Assembly: GCA_016777005.1 (NCBI GenBank)
Contig: JADHSF010000009.1
Span: 1 to 35,413 of the forward strand
Length of the DNA: 35,413 nt
Direction: 5' to 3'
Source: SAR86 cluster bacterium
GTDB taxonomy: Bacteria; Pseudomonadota; Gammaproteobacteria; Magnimaribacterales; Magnimaribacteraceae
Positions 27,924 through 35,058 of this stretch are shown piece by piece (the first letter of the stretch is position 1; each line of letters begins with the position of its first letter). The notes beneath the pieces are model-generated. The model ran no database searches and was not told the origin of the DNA. It worked only from the letters and a program-made list of their open reading frames with translations. Made by a program: the position numbers and the translations under genes.

Positions 27924-28121
27924 TTAAACCCCCGGGCCAATTTGCCCGGTAACAAAACCATAAACTAGAGTTATAAAGAGAACGATCGCTATAGATACTC
28001 TGACGCCCAAACTGTGAACGGTTCTTTTAGATGAGCCTCCATCCTTAATAAGGAAAAAGGCGCCCCTAAATAGGCTAATAAACATTGCCACGATTAAGAA
28101 AATTATAAAGTATTTGATCAT
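27924..28121 (-). CDS. Small twin-transmembrane protein (DUF2909-like)
   Basis: A 65 aa protein with two predicted membrane helices (about residues 2-22 and 38-60) joined by a short basic loop (KDGGSSKRTVHSLGVRVS). I prefer the ATG at 28121, which starts MIKYFIIFL; an upstream GTG at 28145 would add eight residues. Small proteins of this shape, resembling DUF2909, are found on the opposite strand between coxC and SURF1 in Pseudomonas-type clusters, so its retention here suggests a role with the oxidase. The function is not known. Family assignment is from memory of size, topology and position. Confidence 0.75.
   Translation of the reverse strand: MIKYFIIFLIVAMFISLFRGAFFLIKDGGSSKRTVHSLGVRVSIAIVLFITLVYGFVTGQIGPGV
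27932..27949. other. GC-rich hairpin at the convergent coxC / DUF2909-like gene ends
   Basis: CCGGGC (27932-27937) and GCCCGG (27944-27949) form a perfect 6 bp stem with a 6 nt loop, covering the last codons of the small minus-strand gene. No T-run follows on the plus strand, so it is probably not a full terminator for coxC. It could slow polymerase or protect the coxC mRNA 3' end while allowing read-through into the assembly genes. Confidence 0.4.
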
Positions 28122-28163
28122 CTTGAAAGAATCAGCAGTATACACTTAGGTTAACAAAAAAAA

Positions 28164-28862
28164 ATGAGCAAATTTCGTCCAGGAAAATCAATGACCTTCT
28201 TTGTCTTATTTTTTTTCCCTATTTTAATCTTCTTAGGGTCTTGGCAGGTTATAAGGGGCATAGAAAAGACGGATATCGTTGAACAGCACTATATGAACAA
28301 ATCCTTACCGGTTATTAATGAAAAAGATATATCTCTAATAAATCAGGCTAATCTGAAATATCGCACAGTAAATCTCTATGGAGAATTTGGACAAGAGTCT
28401 TATCTTCTCGATAATAGGCTTTACAGGCAAGAGGCAGGTTATGAAATCTTTACGACATTCGAGACTTCTGAAAATAATCTTTTTTTAGTCAACAGAGGGT
28501 GGGTGTCCAAAGAAGGATTTAATTATGATGAAGATGTCCAAATAAAAGAACAACTAATTTCTATACAAGGCCTTCTTTCACCATTCACAAGATTTGGACT
28601 TAATTTGGTGAATCAAAATTACGAAGATACTTGGCCAAAATTAGTTCAGCAAATAGATTATGAAGCTGCCAAAAATGATCTGGGCCTAGATATAAATAAT
28701 TCAGTTATTCAATTGTCTGCAGGTTCAATCGGAGCTCTTGAGCCAATCTGGAAACCTGTTGATTTAAAACCCTCTAGGCATTACGGATATGCCCTACAGT
28801 GGTTTGGACTGGCATTAGTTTTAATTTGTTCATTTTTTTATTACGGATTTAAAAAGGATTGA
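28164..28862 (+). CDS. SURF1 family cytochrome oxidase biogenesis protein
   Basis: Inner-membrane assembly factor linked to haem a insertion into subunit I. The 232 aa protein has two membrane helices at the ends (about 9-27 and 207-228) and a periplasmic domain between them. Conserved segments are FLGSWQVIRGIEK, YRTVNLYGEF, LLDNRLYRQEAGYEIFTTF, VNRGWVS and the C-terminal SRHYGYALQWFGLA. Its stop TGA overlaps the possible TTG start of the next frame. It is the first plus-strand gene after the small reversed gene, so a promoter may lie in 28122-28163, although none stands out. Confidence 0.93.
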   Translation: MSKFRPGKSMTFFVLFFFPILIFLGSWQVIRGIEKTDIVEQHYMNKSLPVINEKDISLINQANLKYRTVNLYGEFGQESYLLDNRLYRQEAGYEIFTTFETSENNLFLVNRGWVSKEGFNYDEDVQIKEQLISIQGLLSPFTRFGLNLVNQNYEDTWPKLVQQIDYEAAKNDLGLDINNSVIQLSAGSIGALEPIWKPVDLKPSRHYGYALQWFGLALVLICSFFYYGFKKD

Positions 28863-28864
28863 TC

Positions 28865-29449
28865 ATGAAAATAAGTAAACAGAATTCTGGAAGAATAATA
28901 GCTTCTTTAATATTTTTAACCCCAATTATCGTTTTATTGTCTAGCTCAGCCATGTTTTACAGTGGCTATACGCCTGAAGGCACAGTAAACAAAGGCACCC
29001 TATTATCAGAGCCCATACAGCTAAGTGACTTAAGATTAGAAGTTACATCTGGGCCATTAGAAGACGAATTTCCCGGTAAGTGGTCTATTGTCCAGTTTGT
29101 TTCTGGGGACTGTATGGAGAAGTGCTGGGACACCTTGTACTCCTCTCGTCAAATAAATATAAGGCTGGCAAAGAATAGCGATAGAGTCGTTAGATATCTT
29201 ATTAATGTAGGAGAAAATAATTTATCTAATGAATCTTTAAATAAAATTAAAGATGAATATCCGCTACTCAATACGGGAGAAATTAATACAGATCTAGTTC
29301 CTTCCTCTATTTCTAATAAATTAAAAGATTCTCCTTACATTTTGTTTGACCCTTTGGGTAATGGAATACTCATTTATGATTCTACCTTGCCCAGTGGCGA
29401 ACTGCTTCAAGACATCAAAAAAGTTCTTCAGAACTCAAAAATAGGATAA
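28865..29449 (+). CDS. Membrane-anchored thioredoxin-fold protein, putative oxidase assembly factor
   Basis: A 194 aa protein with one N-terminal helix (about residues 10-30) and a periplasmic domain. The open frame can start at TTG 28859, but AAGGA lies 6 nt before the ATG at 28865, which I chose. The segment WSIVQFVSGDCMEKCWDTLYSSRQI places a CX3C pair (C83, C87) where SCO proteins have CPDIC, and YILFDPLGNGILIY resembles the late beta strands of that fold. No conserved SCO histidine is seen. A similar gene lies between SURF1 and ctaA in Pseudomonas. A copper or thiol role in CuA assembly is inferred. Confidence 0.7.
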   Translation: MKISKQNSGRIIASLIFLTPIIVLLSSSAMFYSGYTPEGTVNKGTLLSEPIQLSDLRLEVTSGPLEDEFPGKWSIVQFVSGDCMEKCWDTLYSSRQINIRLAKNSDRVVRYLINVGENNLSNESLNKIKDEYPLLNTGEINTDLVPSSISNKLKDSPYILFDPLGNGILIYDSTLPSGELLQDIKKVLQNSKIG

Positions 29450-30432: not shown

Positions 30433-31308
30433 ATGATATCAATATTATCTAATTGGAGAGGTTATCTCGAGCTAACAAAGCCTGGTGTTCAGGCGTTGTT
30501 ATTTGTTTCTTGCGCTAGTGGAATGCTTATAGGATCAGATTTTAGCCCACCAGTATTAGTTTTTTTCTTTGGCTTAATAGGGATAAGTTTTCTTGCCGCC
30601 TCTTCGGCGGTCATCAATCACTTCTTTGATCAGAAAATTGACTCTAAGATGAACCGAACTTCAGAGAGGCCTTTGGTAATAGGCAAAATTTCTGATAAAC
30701 AGGCAATAATTTTTTCAATAATTCTTTATTTGTCTGGTTCTTGGATGCTTTTATTTTTTACAAACCTCTTGACCTGGATTCTTACGACTTTGACATTCAT
30801 ATTTTATGGATTTATTTATACTAAATATTTAAAGTTTATGACCAGTCAAAATATAGTTATAGGAGGTCTTGCGGGTGCCATGCCTCCACTTCTTGGTTGG
30901 GCTGCTATTTCTAACACAATCGAGCCTAATGCCCTCTTGCTTGTTTTAATAATTATGGTTTGGACCCCCCCACATTTCTGGGCTTTAGCTGTCCATAGAG
31001 TTGAAGATTATGCTGATGCGGAAGTCCCTATGTTGCCAGTGCAAAAAGGAGTTCCTTTTACGAAGCAGCACATACTGCTCTATACCTTCCTTTTATTGGC
31101 TACTACGCTGCTACCTTATGCAGTTCAGATGTTTGGAGAAATTTATCTCATTTCAGCATTAATTCTGGGTGGTATATTCTTAGTCTATTCATATAGGCTC
31201 TATAGAGATGATACTAATGCTCTGGCTATGCCAACTTTTGCTTATTCTATAATTTATTTAGCTGCTTTATTTGCTGCCATGCTTATAGATCATTTTATCT
31301 ATCTATGA
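30433..31308 (+). CDS. ctaB: Protohaem IX farnesyltransferase (haem O synthase)
   Basis: UbiA-family prenyltransferase that makes haem O from haem B, the step before CtaA. The 291 aa protein has the first aspartate-rich motif in NHFFDQKIDSKMNRTSERPL and the second region in HFWALAVHRVEDYADAEVPMLP. Several membrane helices are evident. Its TGA overlaps the start of the SCO gene by 4 bp (ATGA). Confidence 0.96.
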   Translation: MISILSNWRGYLELTKPGVQALLFVSCASGMLIGSDFSPPVLVFFFGLIGISFLAASSAVINHFFDQKIDSKMNRTSERPLVIGKISDKQAIIFSIILYLSGSWMLLFFTNLLTWILTTLTFIFYGFIYTKYLKFMTSQNIVIGGLAGAMPPLLGWAAISNTIEPNALLLVLIIMVWTPPHFWALAVHRVEDYADAEVPMLPVQKGVPFTKQHILLYTFLLLATTLLPYAVQMFGEIYLISALILGGIFLVYSYRLYRDDTNALAMPTFAYSIIYLAALFAAMLIDHFIYL

Positions 31309-31931
31309 ACAAAGGAATATTTATAACAGTTGCAGCCTGTTTGGGCTTTATGGCCTTGATACTGGCTTTATTCTTGTCGAGGTTTTATACACCTAGGGAA
31401 TTGACACTAGATGAATATAAAACGCTAGGAGCATACTTTATAGATCCGCCAAGACAGCTTACGGAGTTCAGGCTAATTGATGATTCTGGAGATATCTTCT
31501 TGCCCGAAGATTTTAAAGATAAATGGAATATTTTATTTTTTGGTTTTACCTATTGTCCTGATATATGCCCATTAACCATGAAACAAATGTCTGACATAAA
31601 GCAATCTTTAGGCGCAAAATCAGAAAAGATAAGGATTTTTCTTGTTTCTGTAGACCCAGATAGAGATAAACCCTCAAATTTAAGAATATATTTAGACAAT
31701 TTTGATACAGAATTTATAGGCCTTACAGGAGAGATAGACCAAATATATAAATTTTCAACTCAGGTTAATGCTCCATTTTTCCCAGTCGTTAATAGCAAGG
31801 AAGATAATTACACGGTAGATCACTCTGGTAGTCTTGTTTTAATCAGTCCTAAAGGACAATATGCCGGTTTCTTTAGGGCCCCTCATGAGACCCAAAAGAT
31901 ATTTAAAGCACTTGCCTCTCTTCTTAATTAG
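31305..31931 (+). CDS. SCO1/SenC family copper chaperone
   Basis: Membrane-anchored thioredoxin-fold protein that delivers copper to, or reduces, the CuA site of subunit II. The 208 aa protein has an N-terminal helix (about 5-26) and the metal-binding FTYCPDICPL (C84, C88) with the distal H173 in VDHSG, so all three copper ligands are present. VSVDPDRDKP is also typical. It overlaps ctaB by 4 bp and is followed 6 bp later by the small Cys/His protein gene. Confidence 0.95.
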   Translation: MNKGIFITVAACLGFMALILALFLSRFYTPRELTLDEYKTLGAYFIDPPRQLTEFRLIDDSGDIFLPEDFKDKWNILFFGFTYCPDICPLTMKQMSDIKQSLGAKSEKIRIFLVSVDPDRDKPSNLRIYLDNFDTEFIGLTGEIDQIYKFSTQVNAPFFPVVNSKEDNYTVDHSGSLVLISPKGQYAGFFRAPHETQKIFKALASLLN

Positions 31932-31937
31932 TCTAAT

Positions 31938-32222
31938 ATGCTCAACTCTATGCTGATTCATAAACATAAGTTTGCATTAATTCTTAGCCTATTCTTCGTG
32001 GTAGGCCTATCAGCTGATCCTATTCTTCACTCTCTAGAAGAAGATGACATTCATCATGAAGTTATTGAATGTCAGCTTTGTGAGGGCGAACAATTAAAAG
32101 CATATGATCATTATTTTTTAGAATCTTATGCTCTAAGTTCAATAACTTTATCTGGCCAAGAGAAGGAAATTTTTTCTGTTCTCTCTAAAGGCTTTAGTGC
32201 GAGGGCACCACCTAACTCTTAA
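31938..32222 (+). CDS. Small secreted Cys/His protein preceding metal receptor
   Basis: A 94 aa protein with a cleavable signal peptide, probably cut near GLSA-DP. The mature part is acidic and has a likely metal-binding stretch, HSLEEDDIHHEVIECQLCEG, with one CXXC and several histidines, and ends in ARAPPNS. It resembles the small DUF2946-like proteins that accompany metal TonB receptors and often end in R(A/G)PP; that family assignment is from memory and unverified. A second possible start is M5. It follows the SCO gene by 6 bp and precedes the TonB receptor by 40 bp, suggesting one transcript and a periplasmic role in metal handling. Confidence 0.72.
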   Translation: MLNSMLIHKHKFALILSLFFVVGLSADPILHSLEEDDIHHEVIECQLCEGEQLKAYDHYFLESYALSSITLSGQEKEIFSVLSKGFSARAPPNS

Positions 32223-32262
32223 ATTTACTTAAAACTTTTTTAATTTAAATTTAGGAGAAAAC

Positions 32263-34512
32263 ATGAAAGTTCACTTTTATGCGCTCATGGCGATGAGTTT
32301 AATTACTACGCAAATAAATGCCGATGAACCTGCAACGGACCCTGCTGAGAATGCAGATGAGATTGTTGTAACATCATCTATATTAAATCCTAGCAGGATT
32401 CTTAACCCGCTTTATGTCATTGACGGCGATGAAATAGAAAATAATGCTACTACTTCTTTAGGTGAAGCAGTGGACGGCTATTTAGGTGTTTCCATTGCTG
32501 ATTATGGCGCTGCCGTAGGACAACCTATTATTAGAGGAATGTCAGGACCAAGGGTAAAAATACTCAAAAACGGACTGGTAAACAGGGACGTGTCTGGCCT
32601 TGGAGCCGATCATTTAAACGATATCGATTTAAATGATCTACAGCAAGTAGAAATAATAAAAGGACCTTCGTCTTTGCTTTATGCCAACGGCACAAGTGGT
32701 GGAATCATTAATGTTGTTGATAATTGCATAGCCCCAGAAGATTTTACTACACAAGAATTTATTGCAGGGCTTGAAACACAATCTGTTAATGATGGTGATT
32801 CTCAGTTCTTTAACTACAAAGATAATTTAAATGGCTTTAATGTTAACGTTGGATACAAGAAGTCTGAATTTGGAAATTTTGATATTCCTAATGATGCAAT
32901 AATGCACGAAGAAGATCATGAAGGGCATGATGAGCACGAAGGAGAAGAAGAGCTCTCTTACATAGAAAATTCAGACCTTGAAATAGAGTCTACTAAATTC
33001 GGAATTTCTAGAGCTGGAGAATGGGGATATTTCGGAATTTCTGTTGATAATCATGAAAGTATGTACGGAATTCCTTACCATGGTGAGCATTCAGATGAGG
33101 AAGGTCACGATGATCATGACGAGCATGAAGGTGAAGATGATCATGAAGGTGAAGATGAACATGAAGGCGAAAGAATTTTTTCAACAACCGATCAAGAAAG
33201 CTTCACTATTAAAGGTTTGTATAATGTAAACGGTAATCTGATTAATTCAGTTACTTATAATTACAGAGATACAGACTATTCGTTGATTGAAGCTCATGCC
33301 GAAGAAGAAGGTCATGACGAACACGAAGATGAAGAGCACGAAGAACATGCTCCTACAGTATTTTCGAATGATGCAACAGAATACGGTGCCATATTTGACT
33401 TATCTAACGATAATTTTATACAAAAAATAGCACTAAACTTTGTTGATGAAGATTCTTCTATCGCAGGAGAAGAGGCATTCATGAATCCAGCTAATAATGA
33501 AGAATTTACAATAGGTTACTTTGTTAGCGCAGACCTAGATATGTTCTATTTAGATGCAGGATTTAGGTTGGATCAAATAGATCGAACAGGTAGTGTCACA
33601 GATGAAGACCATGGAGACATAGATAACTACAGTATAGATGACACCACAAATAGCTTTGCTCTTAGCTTAGGGAGAGACCTCAGCGATACTTTAGATGTAA
33701 ATTTTGGTTTTGCTAGCGTTGAAAGACTACCTTCAGTTATTGAGCTCTTTATGAATGGTCCTCATTTAGCCACAGGAAGGCTTGAGACAGGAAATCCAAA
33801 CCTGCAAAGCGAAACCTCAAATAATTTTGATATTACATTTAATTATGAGAGTGGTGATTTCTTTGCCTACGCAAGCTTCTATGTAAATGATGTAGATAAC
33901 TACATCACTCTTCAAGATGAGCTAGATGGTCATGATGATCACGATGATGATGACCATGGAGATGACCATGGAGATGAGCATGGAGACGATGACGATCATG
34001 GAGATGAGCATGGAGACGATGATCATGACGACCATGATGAATTCGCAAATCTTATACATGCTGATTACGTGCAAGAAGATGCAGAATTCAGAGGTTATGA
34101 GTTTGAATTTGGTAGAACTTTCCGTCTAGGATCTGGTGACTTGAGATTATCTTTTGGAAGAGATGATGTTAATGCAGAGTTTACTGATGGACATAATGTC
34201 CCAAGAATTAATCCTGCAAGAAATATCTACTCTCTATCTTATGTTGAAAACGATTGGGTATTTAAACTTAGTCTGAAAGACGTAGAGAGGCAAGATGATA
34301 TAGGTGAAGGCGAAACAGTTACTGATTCTTATCAAATGCTGAATACCAGATTAACAAAAACTTTTGATATCAGTGGAGCAGGTGATTTAAAAGTCTCTAT
34401 ATTTGGAAGTAACTTATTAGATGAAGCTGCAAGAAATCATTCTTCGTTTGTGAAGAAACAGGTTCCTTTGGCTGGAAGAAACTACGGAGCTAAGTTTGTT
34501 TATAACTTTTAA
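32263..34512 (+). CDS. TonB-dependent outer-membrane receptor with His/Asp/Glu-rich loops (zinc or copper)
   Basis: A 749 aa TonB-dependent transporter of ZnuD-like type. It has a signal peptide (residues 1-20), a TonB-box-like ADEIVVTSS near 32-40, a plug domain (IIRGMSGPRVKILKNG, VEIIKGPSSLLYANGTSGGIINV), and a 22-strand barrel ending in the aromatic YNF. Four long insertions rich in His, Asp and Glu lie at about residues 215-228, 273-302, 345-362 and 557-593. They are likely extracellular loops that capture divalent metal. AGGAG sits 5 to 6 nt before the ATG. No Zur-like operator was recognised upstream. Context directly after SCO and the oxidase assembly genes favours copper, whereas homology favours zinc; I cannot decide. 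Confidence 0.9.
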   Translation: MKVHFYALMAMSLITTQINADEPATDPAENADEIVVTSSILNPSRILNPLYVIDGDEIENNATTSLGEAVDGYLGVSIADYGAAVGQPIIRGMSGPRVKILKNGLVNRDVSGLGADHLNDIDLNDLQQVEIIKGPSSLLYANGTSGGIINVVDNCIAPEDFTTQEFIAGLETQSVNDGDSQFFNYKDNLNGFNVNVGYKKSEFGNFDIPNDAIMHEEDHEGHDEHEGEEELSYIENSDLEIESTKFGISRAGEWGYFGISVDNHESMYGIPYHGEHSDEEGHDDHDEHEGEDDHEGEDEHEGERIFSTTDQESFTIKGLYNVNGNLINSVTYNYRDTDYSLIEAHAEEEGHDEHEDEEHEEHAPTVFSNDATEYGAIFDLSNDNFIQKIALNFVDEDSSIAGEEAFMNPANNEEFTIGYFVSADLDMFYLDAGFRLDQIDRTGSVTDEDHGDIDNYSIDDTTNSFALSLGRDLSDTLDVNFGFASVERLPSVIELFMNGPHLATGRLETGNPNLQSETSNNFDITFNYESGDFFAYASFYVNDVDNYITLQDELDGHDDHDDDDHGDDHGDEHGDDDDHGDEHGDDDHDDHDEFANLIHADYVQEDAEFRGYEFEFGRTFRLGSGDLRLSFGRDDVNAEFTDGHNVPRINPARNIYSLSYVENDWVFKLSLKDVERQDDIGEGETVTDSYQMLNTRLTKTFDISGAGDLKVSIFGSNLLDEAARNHSSFVKKQVPLAGRNYGAKFVYNF
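33967..34022 (+). repeat. 30 bp tandem repeat in the receptor's fourth His-rich loop
   Basis: Two copies of a 26 nt identical block start at 33967 and 33997, a 30 bp period equal to ten codons. Shorter 12 bp units (GACCATGGAGAT type) precede them. Because the period is a multiple of three, copy-number changes keep the frame. They encode the HGDEHGDDD pattern. Confidence 0.85.
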
Positions 34513-34581
34513 ATAAGTTCCTTAACCTGACCTCGGTTGGGTATATATTGTCATACCTCCCCAAAGGCACGACGATAGGAA

Positions 34582-34612
34582 GGGATCAGGAATGGACTCC
34601 TGGTCCCTTTTT
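34582..34612 (+). terminator. Intrinsic terminator after the TonB receptor gene
   Basis: GGGATCAGGA (34582-34591) pairs with TCCTGGTCCC (34598-34607) over 10 bp with one G-U pair and a 6 nt loop. It is followed directly by TTTTT. This is a textbook rho-independent terminator on the plus strand, 69 nt past the receptor stop, and it probably ends the oxidase-receptor transcript. On the minus strand no T-run follows, though the hairpin could still shape the DoxX mRNA end. Confidence 0.9.
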
Positions 34613-34614
34613 AT

Positions 34615-35058
34615 TTATTTATTTCCTTTGATGGCAAAGTATATTCCTAATAGCAAAAGAAAGAGTTGTTCGCTTGCAAATAGAATCGATCCTCTTTCGC
34701 CAAAGAATATTCCCCAATCAGAGTGAGCAATTAATAAAGCAAAAATCATTATTACTCCTATGGCTCCTCCAGATATTCTAGTCATTAGATGACCTAGCTC
34801 ACTTATCGCATTGACAAGAAGGCCGCCGATAATTATTCCTAGACCGGCCAATATTTCTCCCCAAGCAACCATATATGCAGCAGTTTCAGCTATGGGCACA
34901 CCTTTAGAACCTAACCAGCCAACAAATCCATCCGATATAGGAAGCTTGCCATATCCATGAAGAAAGAAGGCAATACCTAGCCCTAGTCTTAACAGCCAAT
35001 TTGCAAGTCCATTTAAGGGTGATGCTATACGGTCAAAAAAATTATTTATTTGTTCCAT
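34615..35058 (-). CDS. DoxX family membrane protein
   Basis: A 147 aa protein with four membrane helices. It starts with an amphipathic FFDRIASPLNGLANWLLRLGLGIAFFLHG and has GKLP and the glycine-rich VAWGEILAGLGIIIGGLL typical of DoxX/SURF4-type proteins. Members have been linked to quinone-dependent oxidation or to redox homeostasis, but no substrate is evident here. GGAG lies about 9 nt before the ATG, giving a clear start. It ends next to the terminator of the TonB receptor gene (convergent). Upstream, 29 bp away on the same strand, is the dehydrogenase-like gene, and the two are probably co-transcribed. Confidence 0.8.
   Translation of the reverse strand: MEQINNFFDRIASPLNGLANWLLRLGLGIAFFLHGYGKLPISDGFVGWLGSKGVPIAETAAYMVAWGEILAGLGIIIGGLLVNAISELGHLMTRISGGAIGVIMIFALLIAHSDWGIFFGERGSILFASEQLFLLLLGIYFAIKGNK

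Follow-up and report, generated by a model that had tools for sequence, protein, structure and literature searches.

Introduction

Metal-sensing arrest-peptide upstream open reading frames (uORFs) are, in the literature we found, experimentally known for copper only, and among the open-licence papers searched none describes a zinc-type member of the CruR/CutF kind. CruR of Bordetella pertussis (bp2923, the uORF of crtA/bfrG) belongs to the DUF2946 family; copper bound to its CXXC motif relieves a translational arrest at RAPP, which shuts off the downstream TonB receptor (PMC9426467). In vitro, CruR has been shown to arrest with the P and A sites occupied by the two prolines of RAPP (PMC12992588). 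The receptor itself, CrtA (BfrG), is a copper TonB receptor under uORF control with ties to heme-copper oxidases, and ScoI genes are found in a few such operons (PMC12914433). The second characterised system is CutF of Rhodobacter capsulatus, which opens a stem-loop masking the Shine-Dalgarno sequence of the next gene (PMC9973294). Most Cys-type CutF-like genes lie near copper genes. As for receptors, ZnuD of Neisseria meningitidis (PDB 4rdr, 4rdt and 4rvw) binds zinc through the ligands D99, H100, E340 and H499 (PMC4557270).

Here we analyse a locus of a SAR86 cluster bacterium, contained in a stretch of 35,413 nucleotides (contig JADHSF010000009.1, positions 1 to 35,413), hereafter called the window. 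In this locus a short ORF resembling CruR and CutF precedes a receptor resembling ZnuD, directly behind the genes for cytochrome oxidase (cox) assembly. With reasonable rather than high confidence, we read the two genes as a zinc-acquisition cassette that is switched post-transcriptionally by a metal-sensing arrest peptide and that rides on the cox-assembly transcript.

Results and Discussion

A ZnuD-like receptor with four His/Asp/Glu-rich insertions

The ORF at positions 32263-34512 (+ strand) encodes a TonB-dependent receptor of 749 amino acids with Plug and TonB_dep_Rec Pfam domains, both scoring above their cut-offs. It is present as a single copy in its genome (1.2 Mb, 82.6% complete), and its closest matches in named genomes come from SAR86 cluster bacteria, the nearest being 80-83% identical over the full protein. 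The initial annotation had noted four insertions made up of little else than His, Asp, Glu and Gly, and this observation was confirmed. The four H/D/E/G-rich stretches have lengths of 20, 31, 20 and 42 residues and add up to 113 residues, where 2000 shuffles of the protein gave 7 on average and 53 at most. Insertion 1 comprises residues 211-230 (positions 32893-32952), insertion 2 residues 273-303 (33079-33171), insertion 3 residues 343-362 (33289-33348) and insertion 4 residues 552-593 (33916-34041), all on the + strand; the last one holds the longest run of pure H/D/E/G, which spans 39 residues (555-593). The AlphaFold2 model, with a moderate mean pLDDT of 67.8, has 22 barrel strands, and the insertions are placed at b3-b4, b5-b6, b7-b8 and b15-b16, each of them connecting an odd-numbered strand with the even-numbered one after it. 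By the standard topology of TonB receptors they are therefore probably the extracellular loops 2, 3, 4 and 8, so that the surface location proposed for them in the annotation agrees with the predicted structure.

The closest solved protein to this receptor is ZnuD, both by sequence (profile score of 205 bits, the next protein reaching 71 bits) and by fold (Foldseek ranks 1-4), with 4rdr as the best solved relative. The NCBIfam ZnuD model NF038289 is also its best family match, although the score of 219 bits lies well below the cut-off of 950. An OprC-type copper receptor was rejected as an alternative assignment on the basis of the family score (TIGR01778, 48.7 bits against a cut-off of 472). 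Like ZnuD, the receptor has 22 strands, counterparts of the zinc ligands and a His/Asp-rich extracellular loop 3, insertion 2 being located in the b5-b6 loop, with its start aligned to that of the metal cluster of ZnuD loop 3. In a profile alignment with checked numbering, D99, H100 and H499 of ZnuD (residues 113, 114 and 513 of the PDB chain, an offset of 14 for all three) align with D116, H117 and H501, the codons of which are located at 32608-32613 (D116-H117, plug apical loop) and 33763-33765 (H501) on the + strand. E340 of ZnuD falls outside the HMMER alignment and was assigned through a D-Y-x-x-x-E motif that the receptor has in common with Acinetobacter homologues; by this motif E343, the first residue of insertion 3, is its likely counterpart. 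The counterparts of all four residues, D116, H117, E343 and H501, are invariant in 70 receptors ranging from SAR86 to Acinetobacter. The two proteins are, however, only about 20% identical, and SAR86 receptors carry four to five long His-rich loops, whereas ZnuD has two clusters in loop 3. Moreover, unlike ZnuD, the SAR86 receptor is headed by a uORF.

The number and length of the loops differ among species, as would be expected of a bulk binder. It could accordingly be argued that the loops merely form a surface sink or buffer against toxic metal and are no antenna for import. We regard this as the least probable of the readings considered, since the plug, the barrel and the buried metal pocket are intact and conserved, and since the Zur-box-like sites and the ZigA linkage described below point to uptake under scarcity. 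In the zinc-import reading, the His/Asp/Glu-rich loops would gather metal at the cell surface and hand it to the buried pocket of D116, H117, E343 and H501 for TonB-dependent import.

A CruR/CutF-like uORF that accompanies the receptor

The ORF of 94 amino acids in front of the receptor (31938-32222, + strand) has a signal-like N-terminus (by eye, basic and then hydrophobic, ending in ...LSADP), His31, a CxxC motif and a C-terminal RAPP. The CxxC (CQLC, residues 45-48, codons at 32070-32081) is a putative metal-sensing site, and the RAPP arrest motif (residues 89-92, codons at 32202-32213) follows 40 residues later. The ORF itself gave nothing above threshold in Pfam or NCBIfam, and Pfam DUF2946 (PF11162, gathering score of 23.7 bits) had no match in 61 SAR86 genomes. 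The lead to its CruR/CutF likeness came from homologues outside SAR86; the uORF upstream of a Peristeroidobacter receptor reaches a DUF2946 score of 23.2 bits, just under the cut-off of 23.7. Among 23 SAR86 homologues, C45, C48, A90, P91 and P92 are invariant, and H31 and R89 are nearly so (R in more than 90%). In SAR86 cassettes that contain a CxxC and whose start is called correctly, the distance from the second Cys to the Arg is 41-43, and the spacing between CxxC and RAPP, 40 residues in the window, is 40-42 in SAR86 and up to about 45 in other relatives.

The likeness to CruR consists in the short length, the signal-like N-terminus, the CxxC, the C-terminal RAPP and the TonB receptor gene directly downstream. 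The differences are a distance between the motifs of 45 residues, plus or minus 1-2, in CruR against 40 in the window, the failure of SAR86 uORFs to reach the Pfam threshold, and a ZnuD-like rather than CrtA-like receptor as the linked gene. In addition, the spacer to the receptor gene is 162 nt in CruR and 40 nt in the window, and a short spacer favours masking of the Shine-Dalgarno sequence over purely Rho-type control. With its 94 amino acids (below 150), a PP at residues 91-92 (within the last 15) and a same-strand gene 40 nt downstream (below 1000 nt), the ORF also lies within the limits applied to CutF-like genes. CutF is an exported uORF product with a Cys metal site; the ORF of the window resembles it in its putative Cys metal site, its C-terminal PP motif and a downstream stem-loop masking the Shine-Dalgarno sequence, which in the window is a predicted one. 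Yet copper switches the target of CutF, a multicopper oxidase, on, whereas the logic of uptake needs the opposite sign. Both a ZnuD-like working of the receptor and a CruR/CutF-like working of the cassette are supported, although strict membership of the NCBIfam ZnuD and Pfam DUF2946 families is not reached.

In SAR86 genomes where the receptor is not linked to SCO, a homologue of the uORF is still found directly in front of the receptor, 36-54 nt upstream, behind unrelated genes and with SCO elsewhere. The uORF-receptor arrangement also occurs in relatives belonging to SAR92 and HTCC2207, in Woeseiaceae, PS1/Rhodobiaceae, Methylophilaceae and others. Grouping the small Cys/His protein with the cox-assembly genes, as had been done at first, was therefore not borne out: it is found with the receptor and not with SCO. 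Instead, the ORF would be a CruR/CutF-like regulatory uORF that belongs to the receptor and regulates it separately from the cox genes. Two records of the PS1 clade/Rhodobiaceae (L131 and L134, labelled alphaproteobacteria) contain the uORF together with a receptor that is 43-44% identical to that of the window, possibly as a result of horizontal transfer.

A predicted hairpin at the receptor Shine-Dalgarno sequence

The Shine-Dalgarno sequence of the receptor gene, AGGAG, is located at 32253-32257 (+ strand). In the window it is predicted to pair with the end of the uORF in a hairpin spanning 32216-32257 (+ strand), in which the Ser and stop codons just past RAPP (from 32216) form the 5' arm; the probability that the Shine-Dalgarno sequence is paired is 1.00. 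For some of the other genomes of SAR86, the predicted partner of the Shine-Dalgarno sequence is CCUCC within the RAPP codons themselves. Over 67 scorable SAR86 cassettes, which are related and thus do not represent independent data points, the mean pairing probability was 0.85, with 0.82 of it involving the uORF end. At 77 control starts, which belong to other genes of these loci, the total was 0.585, and pairing with the equivalent stretch upstream reached only 0.20. Pairing with the uORF end fell from 0.82 to 0.65 upon synonymous recoding of this end, and to 0.61 when ends were swapped with those of dissimilar cassettes, the native value being higher in 53 of the 67. Since synonymous recoding alone keeps 0.65, the RAPP codons and the AU-rich spacer as such account for some of the pairing. 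The reach of a stalled ribosome was estimated from its footprint size. If stalled with the first proline codon (32208) in its P site, it would extend to about 32224 and cover the 5' arm of the hairpin.

These features also bear on the view that the 94-residue protein is a periplasmic chaperone, passing on metal from the receptor, and no cis-acting regulator. The signal-like N-terminus, the His and CxxC, and the constant position next to the receptor would all suit a chaperone. However, beyond single positions, strong conservation is seen only at the CxxC and at the RAPP of the extreme C-terminus, which is proven to act as an arrest motif and has no obvious use in a chaperone; the spacing between uORF and receptor and the hairpin are conserved as well, and the CutF and CruR proteins are rapidly degraded or undetected. 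We therefore consider a chaperone very unlikely and favour a regulatory uORF.

Transcription and linkage to the cox-assembly genes

The genes upstream of the receptor are, in order, surf1, a PA_0111-like gene, ctaA, ctaB, SCO and the 94-residue uORF. The SCO/SenC copper chaperone gene (31305-31931, + strand; Pfam SCO1-SenC, 134.7 bits) is the last of the cox-assembly genes and the immediate upstream neighbour of the cassette. It ends at 31931, 6 nt before the uORF start at 31938, and the receptor gene starts 40 nt past the uORF. The PA_0111-like gene (28859-29449, + strand) encodes an SCO-like redox protein that scores below its family cut-off, and the cox cluster also includes a minus-strand gene for a DUF2909 protein (27924-28145). 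As annotated, the receptor gene stands directly behind SCO and the small ORF; a consensus scan of the + strand detected no terminator-like site from SCO to the receptor, and past the receptor it detected an intrinsic terminator-like stem of 18 pairs with a T-rich tail (34574-34615, + strand). A promoter scan of the SCO-receptor region as a whole gave 20 sigma-70-like sites against 25.5 in shuffles, hence no excess. In all linked genomes that were examined, no more than about 6-21 nt separate SCO from the uORF. With such tight packing, co-transcription of the receptor with the cox-assembly genes is plausible and, in our judgement, very probable.

An order-wide survey of 101 SAR86 genomes found the receptor in 88 and SCO in 95. 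The receptor follows SCO at about 330-350 nt in all 20 evaluable genomes of two genera, namely the genus of the window, g1 (15 genomes), and g4 (5 genomes). Elsewhere in the order this linkage is not seen: within the family of the window, genera g3, g5 and g7 have SCO and the receptor on different contigs and genus g2 has SCO without any match to the receptor, and in the three other families of the order the two genes are far apart or on different contigs. In the loci of genus g5, SCO faces DoxX with nothing between them, which represents an empty-site arrangement. The linkage is thus conserved, yet lineage-specific and confined to two related genera. The cassette probably moved to its place near copper-oxidase genes recently and in this lineage only; this neighbourhood is no proof that copper is collected. 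The initial annotation had tied the receptor to the cox genes, and this does not hold for the order, in most of which the receptor lies away from them.

The same annotation had suggested that the capture of copper is co-expressed with oxidase assembly. Co-transcription fits the tight packing of the genes; copper as the substrate is not supported, as the ZnuD-type ligands and the contexts with ZigA and Zur-box-like sites speak for zinc. A copper-acquisition unit would nonetheless have good precedents. In such a unit, a copper-sensing uORF of the CruR type would control a copper receptor feeding cytochrome oxidase, as CruR and CrtA do in Bordetella. The characterised CruR and CutF both sense copper, CrtA is itself linked to heme-copper oxidases with ScoI in a few operons, and in the two related genera the linkage to SCO was kept in 20 of 20 evaluable genomes. 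Like CrtA, the SAR86 receptor is headed by a uORF and located near oxidase genes. However, CrtA has only two conserved His residues, and PepSY_TM is the next gene in more than 75% of its loci, whereas SAR86 receptors have six invariant His residues (23 sequences) and ZnuD-type ligands, and the genes past them, part of which were domain-scanned, encode mainly a second TonB receptor, MerC, ZigA or unrelated proteins. The receptor is also nearer to ZnuD than to OprC (NCBIfam scores of 219 and 49 bits), the zinc-ligand counterparts are invariant, relatives show ZigA and Zur-box-like contexts, and linkage to the cox genes is absent from most of the order. A copper unit, although the main rival reading, is therefore judged unlikely, and zinc as the metal is favoured clearly over copper.

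Zinc-related contexts in SAR86 and relatives

ZigA, identified with a zinc GTPase model (702 bits, cut-off 600), follows the receptor in one SAR86 genus. ZigA homologues flank the receptor in Luminiphilus and Halieaceae, and one follows it in G225, a genome of the same class but another order. In G225 (L203:861-4867), a perfect Zur-box core, a CxxC/RAPP uORF, a ZnuD-like receptor and a ZigA homologue stand in a row, which possibly represents dual control by transcription and arrest peptide.

Most SAR86 genomes, including that of the window, have a single FUR-family protein. A clear second one was found in 3 of the 101 genomes, all belonging to genus g16; in the two that were scanned, its best NCBIfam match is Zur, at a score below the Zur cut-off. 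In these three genomes the cassette is preceded by Zur-box-like sites: TGTTATGTTATAACA in G056, TGTTATATTATATCA in G059 and TGTTACATTATCACA in G068. Within SAR86 such sites were found only in g16, the sole genus of the group found to have Zur. In G056, where the site is perfect, the uORF has been lost, and no other SAR86 receptor whose upstream region is intact was seen without a uORF. Upstream of the cassette in genera g1 and g4, no Zur-box site with fewer than 4 mismatches was detected. Hence, a Zur-controlled promoter before the receptor, which had been raised as an argument against co-expression with the cox genes, is not apparent as a Zur-box-like site in the genus of the window, although such sites do precede the cassette in the g16 relatives. 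A Zur-box-like site before the homologue in the Zur-bearing genus is a further likeness to ZnuD, and the lack of a detected one in the genus of the window a further difference from it.

As regards inner-membrane zinc importers, ZnuA was found in 1 and ZIP in none of the 101 SAR86 genomes. A MerC-family gene lies directly past the receptor in many SAR86 genomes (L074, L075, L109, L110, L112, L113, L115, L222-L224 and L232). Given the near absence of ZnuA and ZIP, MerC could serve SAR86 as its zinc importer in the inner membrane. In G056, the only other perfect Zur-box-like site stands directly before a diverged MerC-like gene elsewhere in the genome (L234:1117-1500). In many genomes of families f2 and f4, a second TonB receptor of about 860 residues directly follows the first (L073, L078-L080, L084-L086, L111-L116 and others).

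A proposed model for post-transcriptional control of zinc uptake

In the zinc-cassette reading, under metal scarcity RAPP would stall the ribosome at the uORF end. The stalled ribosome would cover the sequence that otherwise pairs with the Shine-Dalgarno sequence of the receptor gene, which would then be translated. Metal bound to the nascent chain by the CxxC, probably together with His31, would relieve the stalling, upon which the hairpin would form and receptor synthesis would fall. Rho termination may add to the shut-off, as in CruR. Since control of this kind would be post-transcriptional, the cassette could be carried by transcripts unrelated to it, which for genera g1 and g4 would be that of the cox-assembly operon. 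Such control would explain how the cassette can move between operons, including this one, without losing its control by metal.

A wider suggestion, with chances that we place close to even, is that SAR86 employs a nascent-chain zinc sensor in place of Zur. The stall site of the arrest peptide would overlap the anti-Shine-Dalgarno sequence of a ZnuD-like receptor. Zur, ZnuA and ZIP are missing from most of the order, and this device would have been kept throughout it; in the one Zur-bearing genus, control of the Zur-box type would be added to it or take its place. If true, a zinc version would show that the arrest-peptide device can be tuned to different metals. It would also explain how zinc uptake is controlled in a heterotroph that ranks among the most abundant of the ocean, and that has almost no Zur and, ZnuA in one genome aside, lacks the usual inner-membrane zinc importers covered by the search.

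History of the receptor copy in the genus of the window

The window receptor (32263-34512) was compared with those of L067-L075 and L101-L106. The body of the g1 receptors groups with the receptors of family f2 (support values of 100/100), whereas CtaB of the same g1 genomes groups with g4 and g5 (94/99). The signal peptide of the g1 receptors (MKVxFYALMAMSL) and their Shine-Dalgarno region resemble those of g4 and g5. The simplest reading of these comparisons suggests that the mature receptor was swapped by recombination just past the signal peptide, behind a resident leader. The g1 uORF is closest to that of one g4 genome (45%), but otherwise not clearly nearer to g4 and g5 than to f2. Downstream of the receptor, other genomes of the genus (L101, L102 and L106) have an ORF of 151-153 amino acids between the receptor gene and DoxX, which the window lacks at 34512-34615.
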